Shown here: positions 2,367 through 42,297 of the stretch, piece by piece | Layout: each line of letters begins with the position of its first letter | How positions within the stretch are numbered: the first letter of the stretch is position 1 | DNA from: Crossiella cryophila | GTDB taxonomy: Bacteria; Actinomycetota; Actinomycetes; Mycobacteriales; Pseudonocardiaceae | DNA: 64,000 nt | Direction: 5' to 3' | Assembly: GCF_014204915.1 (NCBI RefSeq) | Contig: NZ_JACHMH010000001.1 | Span: 310,001-374,000, forward strand | Position numbers and translations under genes: made by a program | Notes under the pieces: generated by a model | What the model was told of the DNA's origin: nothing | Database searches by the model: none | Seen by the model: only the letters and a program-made list of their open reading frames with translations

Positions 2367-3570
2367 CCGTCGGCGCGGTGTTCTCCAGCCGGCGCACACT
2401 ACGGCTGGCCAGCATGAACAGCGTGGCCAGCGCGATCACCCCGGCCGCGGCGTAGAGGGTCTCGGTGACCCCGAAGGCGTGCGCGGCCGGGCCGATCGCG
2501 ATCTCGCCGATCGGCACCGCGAGGAAGGACCCGATCGCGTCGTAGGAGTACACCCTGGCCAGCCGGTCGGCCGGGATGTGCTGCTGCATCGAGGTCTCCC
2601 AGGCCACCCCGAACTGCTCCAGCCCGACCCCGGCCAGGAAGGCCATCAGCACCAGCGTGGTGGTCTGCGGGCTGATCGCCAGGGTCAGCGGCAGCACCGC
2701 GTCCAGCAGCATGCACGCGCACCCGACCAGCAACAGCCTGCGTACCCGCAACCGCATCGCGATCACCGCGCCCACCGCCATGCCCGCGGTCTGCGCGGCC
2801 AGCACCAGGCCCCAGGCGGAGCGGCCGATGGTCGCATCGGCCACCGCGGGGCCGAGCACCTGCAGCACGCCGACCACGGCTGCGTTGAGGAACATGAACC
2901 CGACCACGACCACGACCACCCAGCGCCGGGCCACGAACTCCCGCCACCCGTCGACCAGTTCGCGGATCATGCTGGTGCGCGGCCCGCCGGTGACCCCGGC
3001 CGGCACCTTGATCAGCCAGAAGCACACCCCGGCCACCGCGAAGGTCAGCGCGTCCAGCGCCAGCCCCCAGCCGGGCCCGACCACCGCCACCAGCAGCCCG
3101 CCTGCCGAGGCGCCGACGATCTTGCTGCCGTTCAGCCCGAGCCGCATCAGCGCGTTGGCCTGCAGCCAGGACTCCTCGGGCGCAGTCTGCGGGGTGATCG
3201 CGGAGGAGGCTGGCCAGGAGAAGGCGACCGCGGTGCCGTTGATCGCGGCCAGCACGGCCACCACCGGCACGGTCGCGGTGCCGGTGATCACCAGCGCGGC
3301 CAGCACGGCCTGGCTGAGCACGCTCACCGCGCTGCTGCCGACCAGCACCAGATGCCGGGGCAACCGGTCCGCGATCACCCCGCCGAAGAGCAGCGAGAGC
3401 ACGGACATGATCGAGCGCAGGCCGACAACCAGGCCGAGGGTGACCACCGAGCCGGTGAGGTCGAGCACGGCGAAGGCCAGTGCGATGGTGGCGACGGAAT
3501 CACCCACCTGAGTGATCACCCGGCCCACGGTCAGCAGCCGGAAGGCGGGATACCGCAGGGGTGCGAGCAC
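2353..3570 (-). CDS. MFS transporter (EntS/multidrug-type)
   Basis: A 405-residue integral membrane protein with about 12 hydrophobic segments and a GTG start. The N-terminus (MLAPLRYPAFRLLTVGRVIT) and the motif GGVIADRLPRHLVL between helices 2 and 3 are typical of the EntS-like/TMEM-type MFS exporters common in actinomycetes. The substrate cannot be told from sequence. It is 10 bp downstream of the TetR regulator stop on the same strand, so it probably sits in the transcript that also carries the desaturase and the regulator. Confidence 0.85.
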   Translation of the reverse strand: MLAPLRYPAFRLLTVGRVITQVGDSVATIALAFAVLDLTGSVVTLGLVVGLRSIMSVLSLLFGGVIADRLPRHLVLVGSSAVSVLSQAVLAALVITGTATVPVVAVLAAINGTAVAFSWPASSAITPQTAPEESWLQANALMRLGLNGSKIVGASAGGLLVAVVGPGWGLALDALTFAVAGVCFWLIKVPAGVTGGPRTSMIRELVDGWREFVARRWVVVVVVGFMFLNAAVVGVLQVLGPAVADATIGRSAWGLVLAAQTAGMAVGAVIAMRLRVRRLLLVGCACMLLDAVLPLTLAISPQTTTLVLMAFLAGVGLEQFGVAWETSMQQHIPADRLARVYSYDAIGSFLAVPIGEIAIGPAAHAFGVTETLYAAAGVIALATLFMLASRSVRRLENTAPTVSGG

Positions 3571-3579
3571 CCGGTCAAG

Positions 3580-4251
3580 TTATCGAGAGATGCGCAGCTT
3601 GGGTGCCGGATCCAGGTGTGACAAACCCTTCCAGGACAGGTTGACCAGGTGCGCGGCCACCTCTTCCTTCTTGGGCTTGCGCACCTCCAGCCACCACTGC
3701 CCGGTGAGCGCGACCATGCCCACCAGCGCCTGCGCGTAGAGCCCGGCCAGTTTGGGGTCATAGCCGCGGGAGGAGAACTGCAGCCCGAGGATGTGCTCGA
3801 CCTGGCTGGCGATGTCGTTGAGCAGGCTGGAGAAGCTGCCGGTCGCACTGGCCACCGGCGAGTCGCGGACCAGGATCCGGAAGCCGTCGGCGGACTCCTC
3901 GATGTAGTCCAGCAACGCGGTGGCGGCACGTTCCAGCAGCTCACGGGGGTGGGTGGCACCGGAGAGGGCGCTGATGACACCTTCCAGCAGCAGGTCCATC
4001 TCACGGTCCACGACCACCGCGTAGAGGCCCTCTTTGCCGCCGAAGTGCTCATAGACCACGGGCTTGGACACGCCGGCCCGGTGCGCGATCTCCTCGATGC
4101 TGGCCGCGTCGTAGCCCTTCTCGGCGAACAGCGCCCGCCCGACGTCGAGGAGCTGCTGCCGCCGCTCCTTGCCGGTCATGCGCACCCGCGGCACCGGCGG
4201 GCGCGCTGCGGCGACTTCGCTCTGCGCCCGCTCGCGTCGTCGTGCTGCCAT
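3580..4251 (-). CDS. TetR-family transcriptional regulator, likely of the adjacent desaturase
   Basis: A 223-residue TetR regulator from the ATG at 4251. Helix-turn-helix residues are clear: RRQQLLDVGRALFAEKGYDA, then IEEIAHRAGVSKPVVYEHFG. The C-terminal ligand domain is unassigned. A GTG at 4311 would extend it by 20 residues; the ATG at 4179 (MTGKERRQ) is also possible. I choose 4251 because a purine-rich GGTGGGGGAG directly precedes it, although the spacing is short. It lies 96 bp after the acyl desaturase on the same strand. Upstream of the desaturase are two TTACG/CGTAA palindromes of the kind TetR proteins bind, so negative feedback on desaturation is a reasonable inference. Confidence 0.88.
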   Translation of the reverse strand: MAARRRERAQSEVAAARPPVPRVRMTGKERRQQLLDVGRALFAEKGYDAASIEEIAHRAGVSKPVVYEHFGGKEGLYAVVVDREMDLLLEGVISALSGATHPRELLERAATALLDYIEESADGFRILVRDSPVASATGSFSSLLNDIASQVEHILGLQFSSRGYDPKLAGLYAQALVGMVALTGQWWLEVRKPKKEEVAAHLVNLSWKGLSHLDPAPKLRISR

Positions 4252-6866: not shown

Positions 6867-6937
6867 TCCGCCGTGGTGTAACGGCAGCACCTCGGATTTT
6901 GGTTCCGATGGTCCAGGTTCGAATCCTGGCGGCGGAG
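6867..6937 (+). tRNA. tRNA-Gln (anticodon TTG)
   Basis: A complete cloverleaf of 71 nt: acceptor TCCGCCG pairs with CGGCGGA, D stem GTGT/GCAC, anticodon stem TCGGA/TCCGA with loop TTTTGGT (anticodon TTG), and T arm CCAGG-TTCGAAT-CCTGG. The CCA tail is not encoded. It lies between the hydrolase and the GGDEF gene, so the open frame of the latter that runs through it upstream is not real coding sequence. Confidence 0.96.
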
Positions 6938-6970
6938 CGGTGCGGACTCGGGGAGGGTCCAACCCGAACG

Positions 6971-36491: not shown

Positions 36492-37736
36492 TCACACTGC
36501 CTTGGGCACCTGGGGTTCGCGCTGGTCAGCCGCTGGTGCTGTGCGCCGGACCACAGTGACCGAGCGGGCCATCAGCGCGGTGGCGAAGACCATCACGACC
36601 GCGCCGCCCGCGGCCGCGGCGGCCGGGCCGAAGCGGTCCAGCAGCCAGCCGGCCAGTGGCGCGGCCAGCGCGCCGCCGGTGGTGGTGAAGCTGGCCAGCC
36701 AGCCGACCGCCTCGGCGGCCCGGTCCGGCGGGGCCAGATCGCCGATGCGCTGGTTGCCAGCGGAGATGGTGGGCGCGATGGCCAGCCCGCCGATGGCCAG
36801 GATCAGGCCGATCAGCACCGGCGAGGTCGGGTCCAGCACCGGCGGCAGCACCGGGATCAGCGCGGCCATGCCGACGCCGACCAGCGCCATCCGCAGCGCG
36901 GGCCGCGGCTGCCCCGGCAGTCCGCCCGCGATCAGGCCACCGGCCAGCGAGCCCACCGCCCACACCGCGATCAGCGCACCGGCCACGGTGGGCATGTTCA
37001 GTTCCCGGCCCAGCGCCACGATGGCCAGGTCGACCATGGTGAAGGCCATCACCAGGAACAGCGAGGCGGCCAGCGCGAGGGCCAGGCCGGGGGTGGCCAG
37101 CACCGAGCGCCGCCGGGTCCCGGCGGGCAGGACGGGCCGCGGCACCGGCTTGTCCATCCCGGCCCGCCGCAGCACCACGGCGAAGGCCAGGTTGGCGACC
37201 AGCGCGACCACCGCGACCAGTCCGAGGGCCCAGCGCGGGCCGAGCACGCCGACCGCGAAGGCGGTGAGCACCGGGCCGAGCATGAAGGTCAGCTCGAACA
37301 GGGTGGCCTCCGCGCCGTAGGCGGCCGTGCGCGCCTGGGCGTTCTCGATCCGGGTGAACGCGCCGCGCACCACCTGGGTGGCCGGTGGCGTGCTCAGCCC
37401 GGTGAGGAAGGCGATGACCGGTGCGGCGTACCAAACCGACGCCGGCAGCGCGACCAGCACCACCAGCCCGGCGAAGTAGCAGAGCGCGCTGATCACGATC
37501 AGCCGCGGCGCCGAGGTGCGGTCGGCCATCCGGCCCCGCCACGGCCCGGACGCGCCGTTGCCCACGGTCAGCGCGCCCATCACCAGCCCGGCCAGCGCGT
37601 AGGAGTCGGTCCAGGCCACGACGAGGAAGGTCAGCGCGATCGAGGTCCCGGTGCCGTGCAGTCGGGCGAGCACGGACCAGACCAGCAACGAGGCCAGGTG
37701 GGGGACGGCGAGCAGTTGCCGGTAGGGACGGAGCAC
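36492..37736 (-). CDS. MFS efflux transporter, copy 1
   Basis: A 414-residue, 12-helix transporter with GTG start (LRPYRQLLAVPHLASLLVW). The loop motif is GPWRGRMADRTSAPRL. It is paralogous to the next gene upstream: both share TFLVV-WTDSYALAGLV, GPWRGR-ADR-SAPRL, ANQRIGxLAP-DRAAEA and FGWLASFTTTG-type sequence near the C-terminus. The two pumps are a tandem duplication. Substrate is unknown. Confidence 0.87.
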   Translation of the reverse strand: MLRPYRQLLAVPHLASLLVWSVLARLHGTGTSIALTFLVVAWTDSYALAGLVMGALTVGNGASGPWRGRMADRTSAPRLIVISALCYFAGLVVLVALPASVWYAAPVIAFLTGLSTPPATQVVRGAFTRIENAQARTAAYGAEATLFELTFMLGPVLTAFAVGVLGPRWALGLVAVVALVANLAFAVVLRRAGMDKPVPRPVLPAGTRRRSVLATPGLALALAASLFLVMAFTMVDLAIVALGRELNMPTVAGALIAVWAVGSLAGGLIAGGLPGQPRPALRMALVGVGMAALIPVLPPVLDPTSPVLIGLILAIGGLAIAPTISAGNQRIGDLAPPDRAAEAVGWLASFTTTGGALAAPLAGWLLDRFGPAAAAAGGAVVMVFATALMARSVTVVRRTAPAADQREPQVPKAV

Positions 37737-37782
37737 TGCCCCAGTGTGGCCACGGGGTCCGACATTCCGCGCCTGGTTTTTC

Positions 37783-38970
37783 TCAGGGCTTACGTCGGGT
37801 GGAGAGCAGCGCGGACAGGGTGGCGATCAGCGCCGCCACCGCCGCGCCCCCGGCCGCGGCGGCCGGGCCGACGGTGTCCAGCAGCCAGCCGGCGAACGGG
37901 GCGGCCAGCGCGGTGCCGGTGGTGGTGAAACTGGCCAGCCAGCCGAACGCCTCGGCGGCCCGGTCGGCCGGGGCGAGTTCGCCGATGCGCTGGTTGGCCG
38001 CGGCCACGGTGGGTGAGATGGCCAGCCCGCCGACCGCGAGCAGGACGCCGATCAGCAGCGGTGAGGCCGTGCTCAGCGGCGGCAGCGCGGGCACCAGAAT
38101 GGCCACGCCCGCGGTGAGCAGGGCCATCCGCAGCACGTACCGGGGTGTGCCCGGACGGCCGCCCGCGACCAGGCCGCCGATCATCGAGCCGATCGCCCAG
38201 ACCGAGACCAGTGCTCCGGCCACCGCGGGCAGCGCCAGCTCCCGGCCCACCGCGATGATCACCAGGTTCACGCTGGAGAAGCCCATCATCAGCAGCATCG
38301 CCGCGACCAGCGCCGGGGTCAGCCCCGGCACCGCCAGCACCGAACCCCGGGTCACCACGGCCCCGGCCGCCGTGGGCACCGGCTCGCCGAGTCCGGCCCG
38401 GCGCAGGGCGGCGGCGAAGGAGAGCACGCTGGCCAGCGCGAGCGCGGCGATCAGCCCGACCGCCGCACGTGGTCCGGCCAGGCCGACGGTCAGCGCGGCC
38501 AGCAGCGGACCGCTCATCACGGCCAGCTCGAACAGGGTGGCCTCGGCCGCGAACACCGCCGAGCGGGTGTTCCCGTCGGCGAGCCGGGTGTAGGCGGCGC
38601 GGGCGACCGGACCGACCGGCGGCGTGCTCAGGCCGATCAGCAGTGCGAGCACCGGCGCGGCGGGCCAGGCCCAGCCGGGCAGGCTCAGCATGGCGATCAT
38701 GCCGGCGGCGTAGAGCAGGCAGGTGGTGGTGAGCAGCCGGGGCGCGGAGCGGCGGTCGGCCAGCCTGCCCCGCCACGGCCCGGACACCCCGTTGCCCAGG
38801 GTGAGCGCGCCGATGACCAGCCCGGCCAGCGCGTAGGAGTCGGTCCAGGACACCACCAGGAAGGTCAGCGCGAGCGAGGCGCCGGTGGCGTGCACCCGGC
38901 CGAGCACGGACAGGAACAGGATCGGTCCCAGGTGCGGGACCCGGAGTAACTCGCGGTAGGGCTTGAGCAC
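37783..38970 (-). CDS. MFS efflux transporter, copy 2
   Basis: A 395-residue, 12-helix transporter from the GTG at 38970 (LKPYRELLRVPHLGPILF), which is 4 bp after the pentapeptide-repeat gene stop, so it is very likely in the same operon as the reverse transcriptase. The longer frame to 39087 overlaps the upstream gene and is rejected. Clearly paralogous to the copy at 36492-37736. Confidence 0.87.
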   Translation of the reverse strand: MLKPYRELLRVPHLGPILFLSVLGRVHATGASLALTFLVVSWTDSYALAGLVIGALTLGNGVSGPWRGRLADRRSAPRLLTTTCLLYAAGMIAMLSLPGWAWPAAPVLALLIGLSTPPVGPVARAAYTRLADGNTRSAVFAAEATLFELAVMSGPLLAALTVGLAGPRAAVGLIAALALASVLSFAAALRRAGLGEPVPTAAGAVVTRGSVLAVPGLTPALVAAMLLMMGFSSVNLVIIAVGRELALPAVAGALVSVWAIGSMIGGLVAGGRPGTPRYVLRMALLTAGVAILVPALPPLSTASPLLIGVLLAVGGLAISPTVAAANQRIGELAPADRAAEAFGWLASFTTTGTALAAPFAGWLLDTVGPAAAAGGAAVAALIATLSALLSTRRKP

Positions 38971-38974
38971 CGGG

Positions 38975-39568
38975 TCAGTCCACGACCAGGCCGTGCGCGG
39001 CGGCGAAGGCGACCGCGGTGCCCAGGTCCACCCGCGCACCGACCAGCTGGGCCTGCACCAGGGCGTGCGCGTCCAGCCTTGCCTCACGCAGATCGGCCTC
39101 GCCGAGCCTGGCGCCCTGCATCCGGGCGCCCATCAGGTCCGCGCCGGTGAGGTCGGCGTGCCGCAGGTCGACCTCGACCAGGTTGGCCTCGCGGAACCGG
39201 ATGCCGCGCAGGGACAGCCTGCGCAGGTCCGCGCCGCCGAGCGCGGTCAGCGACAGGTCGGTCTCGCGCAGGGTCCACGGCCGCAGCCGGCAGCGCTCGA
39301 AGGAGGAGCCGACCAGCGAGCAGTTGTCCATTGTGGACTCACTGAACACGGTGCCGCGGAAGGTGCAGCTGCGGAAGGCACTGGCGGTGTGCCTGGACTC
39401 GCCGAGGTCGGTGCCGGCGAAGAGGCAGTCGGTGAAGGTGCAGTTCGCGGTGACCAGCCCGCGCAGGTCCGCCTCGGTGAAATCGCAGGCCACGAAGTGC
39501 CGCCCGGTCCAGCTCTGCCGCCCCAGCACCGCGTCCGCGTAGCTCTCGCCGGTGATCGTCTCGGTCAC
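38975..39568 (-). CDS. pentapeptide-repeat protein
   Basis: A 197-residue protein made largely of pentapeptide repeats of the A(D/N)Lxx type: SYADAVLGRQ, FTEADLRGLV, ANCTFTDCLF, later ADLRRLSLRG, REANLVEVDL, RHADLTGADLMGARMQGARLGEADLREARL. Such proteins form right-handed quadrilateral beta-helices; Qnr and MfpA mimic DNA and bind gyrase. The GTG start overlaps the reverse-transcriptase stop (GTGA), so the two are translationally coupled. MFS copy 2 follows 4 bp later. A role as retron effector or accessory is inference; immunity to a gyrase poison is an alternative. Confidence 0.9.
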   Translation of the reverse strand: MTETITGESYADAVLGRQSWTGRHFVACDFTEADLRGLVTANCTFTDCLFAGTDLGESRHTASAFRSCTFRGTVFSESTMDNCSLVGSSFERCRLRPWTLRETDLSLTALGGADLRRLSLRGIRFREANLVEVDLRHADLTGADLMGARMQGARLGEADLREARLDAHALVQAQLVGARVDLGTAVAFAAAHGLVVD

Positions 39569-40794
39569 GCCTGCCCCCAGTGGATGGTGTCGAAGATCGC
39601 GCGCAGCCGGGCCGCCCTGGCCGGGTGGGTGGCCCCGACCCAGCCGATCCGGCCCAGCAGGTGCGCGCGGAAGTCAGGGTGCCCGACGTGGTTCTGCGCG
39701 TCCGGGCCGGTCCGCGCGCAGTTGTGCAGCACCGCCCGCAACCGGTCGTGGTCCGCCCTGGACACCGCGGGCCGCACGTTGACCACCAGCCCGGCCAGCT
39801 TCTGCCGCTGGTGCGCGGCCGCGATCCGGGTCTTGCCGGGGTGCAGCCGGAAGCCCTCGTCCGCGGCGATCCGGCGTACCCCGGCGCGCAGCCGGTCCAC
39901 CGGGAGATCACCGGAGAAGGCCAGGTCGTCGGCGTAGCGGGTGTAGTTCGCGCCGATCCGTTCGGCCAGCCCGGCCAGTCGGCGGTCCAGCCGCGCGGCC
40001 AGCGCGTTGGCGATGGCGGGTGAGGACGGCGCGCCCTGCGGCAGGTGCGGCGTGGCCAGGCGGTGACGTTGCGCGCCGGGCGGTGCGGCCCGCAGGACCT
40101 CGGGCGGGGTGGCGGTGGTGAGCAGGCCGGTGAGGGCGACGGCGAGGTTGCCGGGGTAGCCGAGGTGGCGGAAGTAGGCGCGCAGCCGGGCGGCGGTGAT
40201 CGAGGTGAAGAACCCGGCCAGGTCGAACCGGGCGACCAGTGGCTGCCCGGCGTGCGGGGCGGCGAAGGTGGCGGCGGAACGGCCGGGCCGGAAGCCGTGC
40301 GCGGCCTCGTGCAGTGGGAGGCGGGCGAGCAGCAGGCGGTTGAGGCGGCGCTGGATCTCGGCCAGGCGGGGCTTGGGGATTTCCAGGGGGCGGTGGCCGA
40401 GCCAGTGGTGCCGGTAGTGCCGCAAAGGTGTGGCGGCACGGCGGTTCCAGGTGCGGGCGTCGGCGAACCAGTCGAGTTCGCCGGGGGTGAGGCGCAGGGC
40501 GGCGGCGAGGTCGGCCGGGGTCTCCCAGCGCGGGACGTCGGCTCGCCAGCGCGGGCGGGGTGCTGCCGCGGGCTCGACCTGGCGGGGCAGGTCGGCGAGC
40601 AGGCGGGCCAGGGCTTCGGGCGGGCCGAAGAACGGGCTGGGGCTCAGGTCGAGCAGGCGGGCGGCGAGATCCTCGGGATCGGGGTTCGGCGCGGCGTGCA
40701 ACGAGATCCCGGCCAGGCGGGTGGCCAGGGCCGGGCGGGTCCAGGCGCCGTCGAGGGCGGTGCGCGCGAGGTGCAGGAGGTCGGCGGAGGTCAT
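39565..40794 (-). CDS. retron-type reverse transcriptase
   Basis: A 409-residue reverse transcriptase from the ATG at 40794. An N-terminal helical region of about 120 residues precedes the RT fold. RT motifs: RPLEIPKPRL (137-146), HGFRPGRS (166-173), first catalytic Asp in ARFDLAGFFTSI (D191), LPQGAPSSPAIAN (251-263), active-site YTRYADD (284-290, YADD), EGFRLHPGKT, and GLVVN (335-339). The retron-specific NAxxH is FAAPH here (177-181), and VTG is LAG (333-335). No maturase or endonuclease domain, so it is not a group II intron RT. It resembles myxobacterial/actinobacterial retron RTs. A candidate msr-msd RNA lies 91-259 nt upstream. The frame is open to 40965 but that would cover the RNA. 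Confidence 0.88.
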   Translation of the reverse strand: MTSADLLHLARTALDGAWTRPALATRLAGISLHAAPNPDPEDLAARLLDLSPSPFFGPPEALARLLADLPRQVEPAAAPRPRWRADVPRWETPADLAAALRLTPGELDWFADARTWNRRAATPLRHYRHHWLGHRPLEIPKPRLAEIQRRLNRLLLARLPLHEAAHGFRPGRSAATFAAPHAGQPLVARFDLAGFFTSITAARLRAYFRHLGYPGNLAVALTGLLTTATPPEVLRAAPPGAQRHRLATPHLPQGAPSSPAIANALAARLDRRLAGLAERIGANYTRYADDLAFSGDLPVDRLRAGVRRIAADEGFRLHPGKTRIAAAHQRQKLAGLVVNVRPAVSRADHDRLRAVLHNCARTGPDAQNHVGHPDFRAHLLGRIGWVGATHPARAARLRAIFDTIHWGQA

Positions 40795-40884
40795 CCGGCG
40801 GCCGCCGGAAGTGGGCGCGGGTGGCCGACGGCAACCAGCGGCGGATGGCGGTCGGGCGCGGGTGCCGAGCGGCGGCGCCAGGTG

Positions 40885-41053
40885 TGCGGCGGGACGGGGC
40901 GACCTCTGCCATCGTGAGCCGCGTGGGGCTCGCACGCGGAGCGTGCCGATCCACGCGGGGCGCACTGACCAGCTGAAACACTGCTCCCCGGGGTATCCCC
41001 GGAGGGAAGGGCGAGCACTGGGCCACCCCTCGTCTCGCTCCCGCCCCGCCGCA
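40885..41053 (-). ncRNA. candidate retron msr-msd RNA
   Basis: On the minus strand a segment of 169 nt starts with TGCGGCGGGGCGGG (41053-41040) and ends with CCCGTCCCGCCGCA (40898-40885). These pair over 14 positions with one G-U; with one bulged A the pairing extends four more (GCGA/TCGC). AGCGAGA follows the first arm directly, as after a1 in retron Ec86, where the G of AGC is the branching base (here 41038). Inside are a GC-rich hairpin at 40984-41004 and a nested hairpin at 40919-40958 (arms CCGCGTGG/CCACGCGG outside, GCACGC/GCGTGC inside), suited to an msd stem. Predicted, not proven. Confidence 0.6.
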
Positions 41054-41064
41054 CCCCGGTGACG

Positions 41065-42099
41065 CTAGCCGCTACCCCCGACAGGCGGCGCGGTGCTCCC
41101 CCTGGGCTCCAGCCTGGGCAGCTCGTCCTGCACGTCCTGCGCGGGCAGTCCGCCGACCAGTCCCAGTAATCGCCGGGCGGCCCTGGCGCCGAAGGCCGCG
41201 GTGTCCCTGACCAGCGCGGTGAGCTGCGGGTGGGTCAGGCGGCAGAGCGCGGAGTCGTCCCAGGCCACGATGGACAGCTCGGCAGGCACCCGCACGCCGA
41301 GTTTGCTGGCCTCGCTCATGCCGGCCACCGCCATCACGTCGTTGTCGTAGATGACCGCGGTGGGGCGTTCGGGCGCGGTGAGCAGCCTGCGGGTGGCCCC
41401 TGCCCCGGCCTCCACGCTGTAGTCGGTGGCCAGCGAGGGTTCGGCGGTCAGGCCGTGCCGCTGCATGGCCTGCTGGAAGGAGCGCACCCGGCGCTCGGTG
41501 TGGATCAGCCTGGGCAGTCCGGCGATATGCGCGATCCGGCGGTGGCCCAGGCCGACCAGGTGATCGACGATGGCGCCCATCGCGGCCGCGTCGTCCACCC
41601 AGATGCTGGGCGTGCCGCCGGGGCACGGGCCTCCTATCACCAGTGCGGGCACGCCGAGTTTGGCCAGCAGCGCCGGGCGCGGATCGACCAGCCGGGGATC
41701 CACCACGAGCAGTCCGGCCACCCGGCGCTCGGCCCACCAGCGGCGGTACAGCTCGCATTCGGCGGAAAGGTCCTCGACCACCTGGAAGAGCAACGCGGTG
41801 GAACTGCGGGCCAGTGCGGTCTGAATTCCGGAGACCAGCTGCAGGAAGAATGGCTCGACACCCAGCGTGGCGGCCGGTCTGGCGAACACCAGGCCCACCA
41901 CGTCGGTCTTGGCCGCGGACAGCGCGCGGGCCGCGCTGTTCGGCCGCCAGTCCAGATCCTCGGCCACCTTCAGGATTCGGCGGCGAGTCTCCTCCGACAC
42001 GCCGGGCCGGTTGTTGAGCGCGAACGAGACCGCGCTCTCCGAGACCCCCGCGGCGCGGGCGATGTCCCTGATGGTGACCCGTCTGGCCGCTGCCTCCAC
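41065..42099 (-). CDS. LacI-family transcriptional regulator
   Basis: A 344-residue regulator. The N-terminal HTH is VTIRDIARAAGVSESAVSFA with hinge LNNRPGVSEETRRRIL; the C-terminal periplasmic-binding-like domain follows. I choose the GTG at 42099 because GGGAGGTG lies about ten bases before it; the longer frame to 42183 has no support. It is divergent from the sugar transporter/glycosidase operon at 42298, which it likely represses. A 20-bp inverted repeat (42128-42147) lies between them. Its 3' end is 12 bp from the retron RNA candidate. Confidence 0.92.
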   Translation of the reverse strand: MEAAARRVTIRDIARAAGVSESAVSFALNNRPGVSEETRRRILKVAEDLDWRPNSAARALSAAKTDVVGLVFARPAATLGVEPFFLQLVSGIQTALARSSTALLFQVVEDLSAECELYRRWWAERRVAGLLVVDPRLVDPRPALLAKLGVPALVIGGPCPGGTPSIWVDDAAAMGAIVDHLVGLGHRRIAHIAGLPRLIHTERRVRSFQQAMQRHGLTAEPSLATDYSVEAGAGATRRLLTAPERPTAVIYDNDVMAVAGMSEASKLGVRVPAELSIVAWDDSALCRLTHPQLTALVRDTAAFGARAARRLLGLVGGLPAQDVQDELPRLEPRGSTAPPVGGSG

Positions 42100-42127
42100 C
42101 GGGTGGACACCTCCCGAAGTAAAGCGG

Positions 42128-42147
42128 TTTATCGATTCCGAGATAAA
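42128..42147. promoter_or_regulatory. candidate LacI operator
   Basis: TTTATC and GATAAA flank 8 bp, just upstream of the LacI regulator start, in an AT-rich island. On the other side, TTGACG (42232-42237) is a possible -35 for the transporter operon, with a weak -10 (CAATTT) 17 bp further. Confidence 0.45.
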
Positions 42148-42297
42148 GCGCATTAGTTCCGGCACTGTCGCGCGGGTGAACACGGCCTGTCAAGCACTGG
42201 ACAAGAAAGTGGACAGGGCTACTCTCCGGTGTTGACGCAGCCCGACCGACAGCGCAATTTTCACCCCACCTGGAAACCCGCCGAAGGAGTTCTCGTC

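Follow-up and report, generated by a model that had tools for sequence, protein, structure and literature searches.

A probable retron of Crossiella with a conserved template-like RNA and no constant adjacent effector

Retrons are commonly understood as systems of three parts that guard a toxin. Some of them have no clear effector neighbors, as stated in PMC8867640 with reference to the Mestre classification, and putative retrons in Actinobacteria are mentioned in PMC6868368. Retron-Bth1 of Bacillus thuringiensis, as described in PMC12548924, has an unclassified reverse transcriptase (RT) and no apparent effector, and it makes RT-DNA. We analyzed a 64-kb stretch of DNA from Crossiella cryophila (the window), in which a retron-type RT gene is preceded by a structured noncoding RNA. 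The locus is very probably a genuine retron cassette, with an RNA (a1 arm, msr hairpins, msd hairpin, and a2 arm) followed by the RT. Support for this reading comes from profile scores, a tree, the predicted fold, covariation, and the co-occurrence of RNA and RT.

The locus resembles the typed retrons Ec86, Ec67, and Ec78 in its RT fold, in having the RNA before the RT, and in the a1/a2 stem, the G at the stem end, and the msr and msd hairpins of that RNA. It differs from typed retrons in that the best typed profile, RT_XIII, matches the RT at only E 1.1e-85 and the RT sits on a tree branch of its own. Furthermore, no typed effector is adjacent, and our two covariance models of the RNA, R1 and R2, match none of the retron loci of other lineages that were searched (0/7 and 0/17, respectively). 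Like Retron-Bth1 as described in PMC12548924, it has no apparent effector; according to the same source, Retron-Bth1 is found in another host phylum and on an extrachromosomal element. The lineage is little studied and occurs in several phyla, and unlike the well-studied retrons it has no constant partner gene adjoining. A conserved template RNA that spans phyla, is common in Planctomycetota, and lacks a constant adjacent toxin offers a testable case for the action of a retron with no effector in its cassette. With the RNA models and candidate partners given here, the question of the effector can be put to concrete experiments, and the family supplies new RT-RNA pairs for high-GC hosts.

The reverse transcriptase and its lineage

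The RT gene (39565-40794, minus strand) is an intact open reading frame of 409 codons with an ATG start. Residues 1 to 70 form a small helical N-terminal domain, which is followed by the RT core. A preliminary description of this DNA had reported complete RT motifs and no maturase or endonuclease domain, and both observations held. HGFRPGRS, LPQGAPSSP, YTRYADDLAFS, and KLAGLVVN are all present, and a Pfam search gave RVT_1 (E 1.1e-16) as the sole match above cut-off, with no maturase or endonuclease domain. The dN/dS values against three Crossiella orthologues are approximately 0.21, 0.26, and 0.26, and the RT is clearly under purifying selection. It is present as a single copy in its own genome (10.06 Mb, one contig), where two further RTs with an equal RVT_1 score are group II-like. 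Among the matches listed, its closest named relatives are from Crossiella, with 90% and 86% identity.

Profile searches and structure comparisons place the RT with retrons. It is a near full-length match to the PADLOC profiles RT_other (PDLC02949; E 9.6e-167) and RT_outgroup (PDLC03740; E 6.6e-156), with RT_XIII far behind. Therefore, the RT is a member of an already profiled lineage, and the names of these profiles carry no type or effector. None of the NCBIfam cut-offs was reached, the best match being the retron St85 RT (144 versus 235 bits). A sequence search of the PDB returned the Ec86, Ec67, and Ec78 retron RTs first (E 5e-22 to 2e-17), and group II maturases at only about 1e-3. When the AlphaFold model of the RT (pLDDT 95.1) was used in Foldseek, the top 18 chains were all retron RTs, with G2L4, group II, and DGR enzymes below them.

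We also built a tree of 44 RT cores, consisting of 21 from the family (chosen from 91 that were read), 17 other retron RTs, and six group II-type RTs assigned by their RVT_1 scores. The 17 other retron RTs are plasmid-borne, and 10 of them are PADLOC-typed, with I-A, I-C, III-A, or XI as best type. The 21 family members and these 17 stand apart from the six group II-type RTs with support of 100/99, and the family makes up one side of a branch with support of 92/97, in a bootstrap that had not fully settled. A phylogeny had been proposed as a check on the preliminary assignment, and the RT did not cluster with group II-type RTs; DGR enzymes were outside the tree and lower in the fold ranking. 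Nor did we find any group II intron RNA in the window at Rfam gathering cut-offs. By profile, tree, and predicted fold, the RT belongs to the retron lineage.

The preliminary description had also pointed to degenerate hallmark motifs as a possible sign of a divergent lineage. The motifs are as it stated, with FAAPH in place of NAxxH (region X) and LAG in place of VTG (region Y), but they do not mark an unusual lineage. In a census of 82 aligned family RTs (nine of the 91 that were long, broken, or near-duplicate had been removed beforehand), VTG occurs in 28 and the NA of NAxxH in 16, whereas the H is invariant. Variation of a similar kind in retron RTs is described in PMC4244168, and PMC6868368 likewise describes both motifs as varying among retrons. 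The departure from the literal hallmark motifs counts against a retron assignment, and so does the lack of an NCBIfam match above cut-off; judged from these sequences, the degenerate forms appear to be ordinary variation.

A different sort of variation is seen in genome G013 (L136, G013:C10). Its RT carries two proline/serine/glycine-rich insertions of about 150 and 225 residues, one of which directly precedes the LPQG motif. We considered whether this RT is broken, but it is a single open frame with two low-complexity insertions.

The upstream RNA

The gap between the RT and the upstream LacI-type gene is 270 bp long (40795-41064), and its description as unusually structured was borne out. 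The RNA strand of 40860-41062 folds at -123.6 kcal/mol, versus -105.6 (standard deviation, 4.5) for 200 dinucleotide shuffles (z = -3.99), and none of the 200 folded as low. By fold, model matches, and conservation, an msr-msd-like RNA runs on the minus strand from a1 to a2 (40881-41057), and the interval earlier suggested for small-RNA sequencing, 40885-41053, is almost exactly this core. When the strand from 41057 to 40881 was folded, it gave an a1/a2 stem, a pair of hairpins in the msr, another small hairpin, and an msd hairpin that is branched. The a1 arm, GGGGTGCGGCGGGGCGGG, occupies 41040-41057 and pairs with the a2 arm, TCGCCCCGTCCCGCCGCACACC, at 40881-40902. Between them lie msr hairpin 1 (41006-41034), which is variable; msr hairpin 2 (40986-41004), with the sequence CUCCGGGG-AUA-CCCCGGGG; and the msd hairpin (40918-40963; helices 3 and 4), the template of the predicted msDNA. 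A spacer (40795-40880) separates the RNA from the RT. This RNA has what is expected of a retron RNA: complementary ends, a position immediately before the RT, hairpins in the msr, and a long hairpin in the msd.

The RNA segment aligns without gaps to those of three Crossiella relatives, with 162/169, 144/169, and 146/169 identical positions; third-codon identity of the RT in three Crossiella relatives is 0.81, 0.76, and 0.74. The spacer is not conserved in length, being 18, 24, and 99 nucleotides in three Crossiella relatives. The a1/a2 stem of two genomes (G002 and G004) has a compensatory C-G to U-A change. Hairpin 2 is the signature of the family. A GGGG-NNN-CCCC hairpin precedes most homologous RTs, and its flanking arms are complementary, with arm sequences that differ between phyla. 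We took the a1/a2 arms as the best stem in each sequence. The mean score of this stem over 83 loci was 41.1, versus 24.8 (standard deviation, 4.7) in shuffled flanks. It exceeded all 20 shuffles in 67 of the 83 loci and failed to do so in 16, including the relatives L005 and L087.

According to PMC6868368, copying in retrons starts from a paired stem, and the priming G, commonly within AGC, lies either inside the a1 stem or immediately beyond its end. Here, the stem end and putative priming G lie at 41034-41038. The stem ends in GCGA, and the next base, G41034, aligns to an invariant G of the family; RNA alignment A2 has an invariant CAAG, and alignments A3 and A4 have an invariant GAG. The alternative is G41038, within a GAGC (41040-41037) equal to the form given for Mx65 in PMC6868368. 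At the level of sequence, then, a candidate priming G is found at or beside the end of a1.

A stem score of at least 28 was reached by 78 candidate RNAs, and three sets for the study of covariation were picked from these by hand. In a set of 19 nonactinobacterial RNAs, 24 of 33 pairs show a two-sided change, and 92.7% of cells pair, versus 69.9% after shuffling, a level reached by 0/500 shuffles. The share of a1/a2 in the count of 24 is partly circular because the arms were picked for pairing. However, msd helices 3 and 4, which were not, covary too. The set of 13 RNAs, mostly from Micrococcales, has a two-sided change in 21 of 44 pairs; here, the level of further pair types was reached by 59/500 shuffles. 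The third set, 11 Pseudonocardiaceae RNAs with that of the window, was aligned and kept outside the pair counts. When 75 RNAs from 77 sources were aligned to the covariance model, a procedure that leans toward the structure, 30 of 33 pairs showed a two-sided change.

Model R1 was trained solely on the 19 nonactinobacterial RNAs. Over the 64 kb, it ranked the core of the window RNA first (40912-41004, minus strand; E 1.7e-6), and the runner-up was at 3565-3654 (plus strand; E 0.017). The match takes in hairpin 2 and the msd, and because it covers only model positions 54 to 145, a1/a2 went unscored. Model R2 matches 40889-41049 (minus strand). At E ≤ 0.01, R1 recovered 83 of 96 sources, of which 19 are training rows. 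Its 13 misses are four weak nonfamily RT loci (L099 and L101 to L103) and nine family loci (L014, L057, L066, L068, L069, L072, L083, L089, and L090). R2 recovers L014, L089, and L090, and L069 is recovered at 0.0087. L068 lacks most of its upstream stretch, and the L066 RNA looks right by eye only. R1 and R2 found no recognizable RNA upstream of the RT in planctomycete loci L057, L072, and L083. The RTs of these three are related, and they keep a conserved planctomycete neighbor (see below) though without a recognizable RNA.

As well as giving no match in other retron lineages, R2 gave none in an empty-site locus. Among 60 genomes (that of the window and 59 relatives), R2 at E ≤ 0.01 found the RNA in 15, and the RT was found in the same 15 (Fisher P = 1.9e-14, kinship ignored). 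RNAs from 12 of these genomes were in R2 training, and G008, G013, and G022 were outside it. A 16th RT match (G020; E 4e-4) was set aside: this enzyme scores far higher against RVT_1, is distinct from the family RT, and is probably group II-like. All of this agrees with the proposal that a retron-type RT directly follows an msr-msd-like RNA.

The window RNA matched no Rfam 15 family. At permissive Rfam thresholds, it had one chance-level match, and the RNAs of five relatives had none. Its distinctness from known families is judged against Rfam 15; PADLOC has msr-msd models of its own (PMC9252829). A literature search, with the classification of Mestre et al. (2020) outside its scope, recognized no description of the RNA of this lineage. 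The preliminary term "undescribed" may suit the RNA, which matches no Rfam family, but does not suit the RT, whose lineage is already in PADLOC profiles. Within the literature searched, neither the conserved RNA of this lineage nor its lack of a fixed effector turned up.

Distribution and neighboring genes

A homology scan found at least 265 relatives among 588 candidate stretches, and 80 were kept. The locus had been called actinobacterial, which proved too narrow. By record titles, the 80 are from Actinomycetota, Planctomycetota, Verrucomicrobiota, Pseudomonadota, and Acidobacteriota. At one threshold, the RT family was found in 39/199 Planctomycetota versus 5/396 Actinomycetota genomes, each count including the positive genome on which the sample was centered. 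It was found in 0/14 controls. Some copies are on large Burkholderia replicons and on Tsukamurella and Dietzia plasmids. One record titled Vibrio cholerae (L024; WNZI01000030.1) has a retron RNA and neighbors that group with Arthrobacter loci, and this assembly is probably mislabeled or contaminated.

The cassette is flanked by a LacI-type regulator gene upstream (41065-42183, minus strand), which ends 7 nucleotides before a1, and by a gene for an MfpA-like pentapeptide-repeat protein downstream (38975-39568, minus strand), the start of which overlaps the RT stop. Both flanking genes are present in Crossiella genome G003, which has no retron. At the same place (L135; G003:C1:5617000-5620500), G003 has the LacI-type stop, 11 nucleotides, and the in-frame GTG of the pentapeptide gene. 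With an empty site as clean as this, the RT and RNA appear to be present or absent as a unit of about 1.5 kb. Beyond the pentapeptide gene, and in the same orientation, come two tandem genes for major facilitator superfamily (MFS) transporters (36492-39087, minus strand).

The pentapeptide protein is a full-length match to MfpA (NF000349; E 5.6e-52). However, it scores 176 against a cut-off of 360 and so is not a named MfpA. In Pseudonocardiaceae, its gene often follows the RT. It adjoins the RT or lies close by in four Crossiella loci and in L006, L007, L059, G013, and L089, with another open reading frame in between in L089. In L059 (5815-7905), an apparent fusion of RT and pentapeptide protein was rejected as a run-on caused by a disrupted RT frame in the record. 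A search over all RT loci found close pentapeptide homologues beside the RT in Pseudonocardiaceae only. A homologue (E ≤ 1e-30) is present in 40 of the 60 genomes, versus 15 with the RT. The pentapeptide gene is a resident gene that relatives without the retron also have.

We found no effector that is constant across the family. Among 89 downstream open reading frames picked mechanically from 90 loci, Pfam families recurred in three at most and PADLOC families in two at most; 49 were on the same strand as the RT and 40 on the opposite strand. PADLOC identified no typed retron effector or RT-fused effector in these picks or in the four adjacent window genes. The scan covered downstream picks only, and the mfpA-like genes of L005, L006, and L087 were not among these. 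The largest cluster of neighboring open reading frames was read as antisense frames of the RT and not as a partner. The N-terminal domain of the RT was rejected as a fused effector since it is not constant, being missing in several Amycolatopsis RTs and different in planctomycetes. In some of the latter (e.g., L063, L068, and L077), a hydrophobic and then a basic stretch replaces it, which is perhaps membrane associated.

A constant neighbor does exist in one planctomycete clade. A protein of about 225 to 306 residues with several hydrophobic segments is encoded 3' of the RT in eight loci (L057, L063, L068, L072, L077, L078, L081, and L083). It had no Pfam or PADLOC match, and its structure prediction was poor (pLDDT 63). 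It was found in 10/199 genomes, all of them among the 39 RT carriers (Fisher P = 3e-8, kinship ignored), beside the RT in five and elsewhere in the genome in five. We regard this membrane-type protein, and the MfpA-like protein in our locus, as lineage-specific candidate partners.

Proposed mechanism and rival readings

By analogy with the biochemistry of retrons, pairing of a1 and a2 would join the RNA ends, and the RT would hold the msr hairpins. Synthesis would be primed from the 2'-OH of the G at the a1 end, G41034 or G41038. Copying would proceed from 40903, a start given by the retron rule, toward 40963 over the msd hairpin. The short hairpin cDNA would stay joined to the msr as a predicted branched msDNA, and the template would probably be trimmed as in other retrons. 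We lean slightly toward the view that the RT-msDNA particle would, like those of known defense retrons, sense or titrate a phage or host DNA-binding factor, with an output protein that is encoded elsewhere or swapped between lineages and not fixed in the cassette. Because no family-wide effector was found, a role in defense is something that we infer. It is also conceivable, at somewhat less than even chance in our estimate, that this five-phylum lineage keeps RNA and RT with no fixed effector, either as a solo msDNA particle (perhaps with a nondefense role) or as a sensor module wired differently in each lineage. The outputs of such a module might be the membrane-type protein in one planctomycete clade and the DNA-mimic pentapeptide protein in Pseudonocardiaceae.

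MfpA proteins mimic DNA and act on gyrase. The pentapeptide protein might therefore be the effector of this lineage, a gyrase-directed mimic held or released by the RT-msDNA particle and co-translated with the RT. The overlap of its start with the RT stop, its position at or near the RT in five loci besides the four in Crossiella, and the different upstream neighbors in Crossiella and Amycolatopsis are all in its favor. Even so, we consider this unlikely. The protein falls below the NCBIfam MfpA cut-off, its homologues are in more genomes than is the RT, and retron-free G003 has the gene at the corresponding site. Pentapeptide domains also occur in only 2/89 downstream picks, and close homologues beside the RT are limited to one family of bacteria. 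A solo retron, in which RT and msDNA suffice and either the msDNA itself or the helical domain at the N terminus is the output, possibly outside phage defense, is doubtful rather than improbable. The lack of a shared Pfam or PADLOC family among the downstream picks, their mixed orientation, and the housekeeping-like neighbors on Burkholderia and Tsukamurella replicons speak for it. However, the mechanical picks overlooked three mfpA-like genes, one planctomycete clade has its constant neighbor, and the N-terminal domain varies as described above.

Two further readings would remove the retron altogether. It is very improbable that the RNA serves as an ordinary leader with a regulatory role, whether as the lacI 3' end or as an attenuator of an RT/mfpA operon, and not as a template. 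It does begin 7 nucleotides past the LacI-type gene and shares its strand, but RNAs built in the same way stand before the RT in five phyla, beside unrelated genes, the layout is that of a retron, and in none of the 60 genomes was the RNA found without the RT. We give hardly any credence to a nonretron RT (group II, DGR, or Abi/DRT) beside a chance structured RNA. Weak NCBIfam matches to a group II model (45 versus 300 bits) and to Drt2 models point that way but are below cut-off, whereas the profiles, the fold ranking, and the tree, which is without DGR and Abi RTs, favor a retron RT.

Elsewhere in the window, we noted a SAM riboswitch (RF00162; 24568-24659, minus strand; 59.2 bits) and a tRNA-Gln (ttg; 6867-6938, plus strand).
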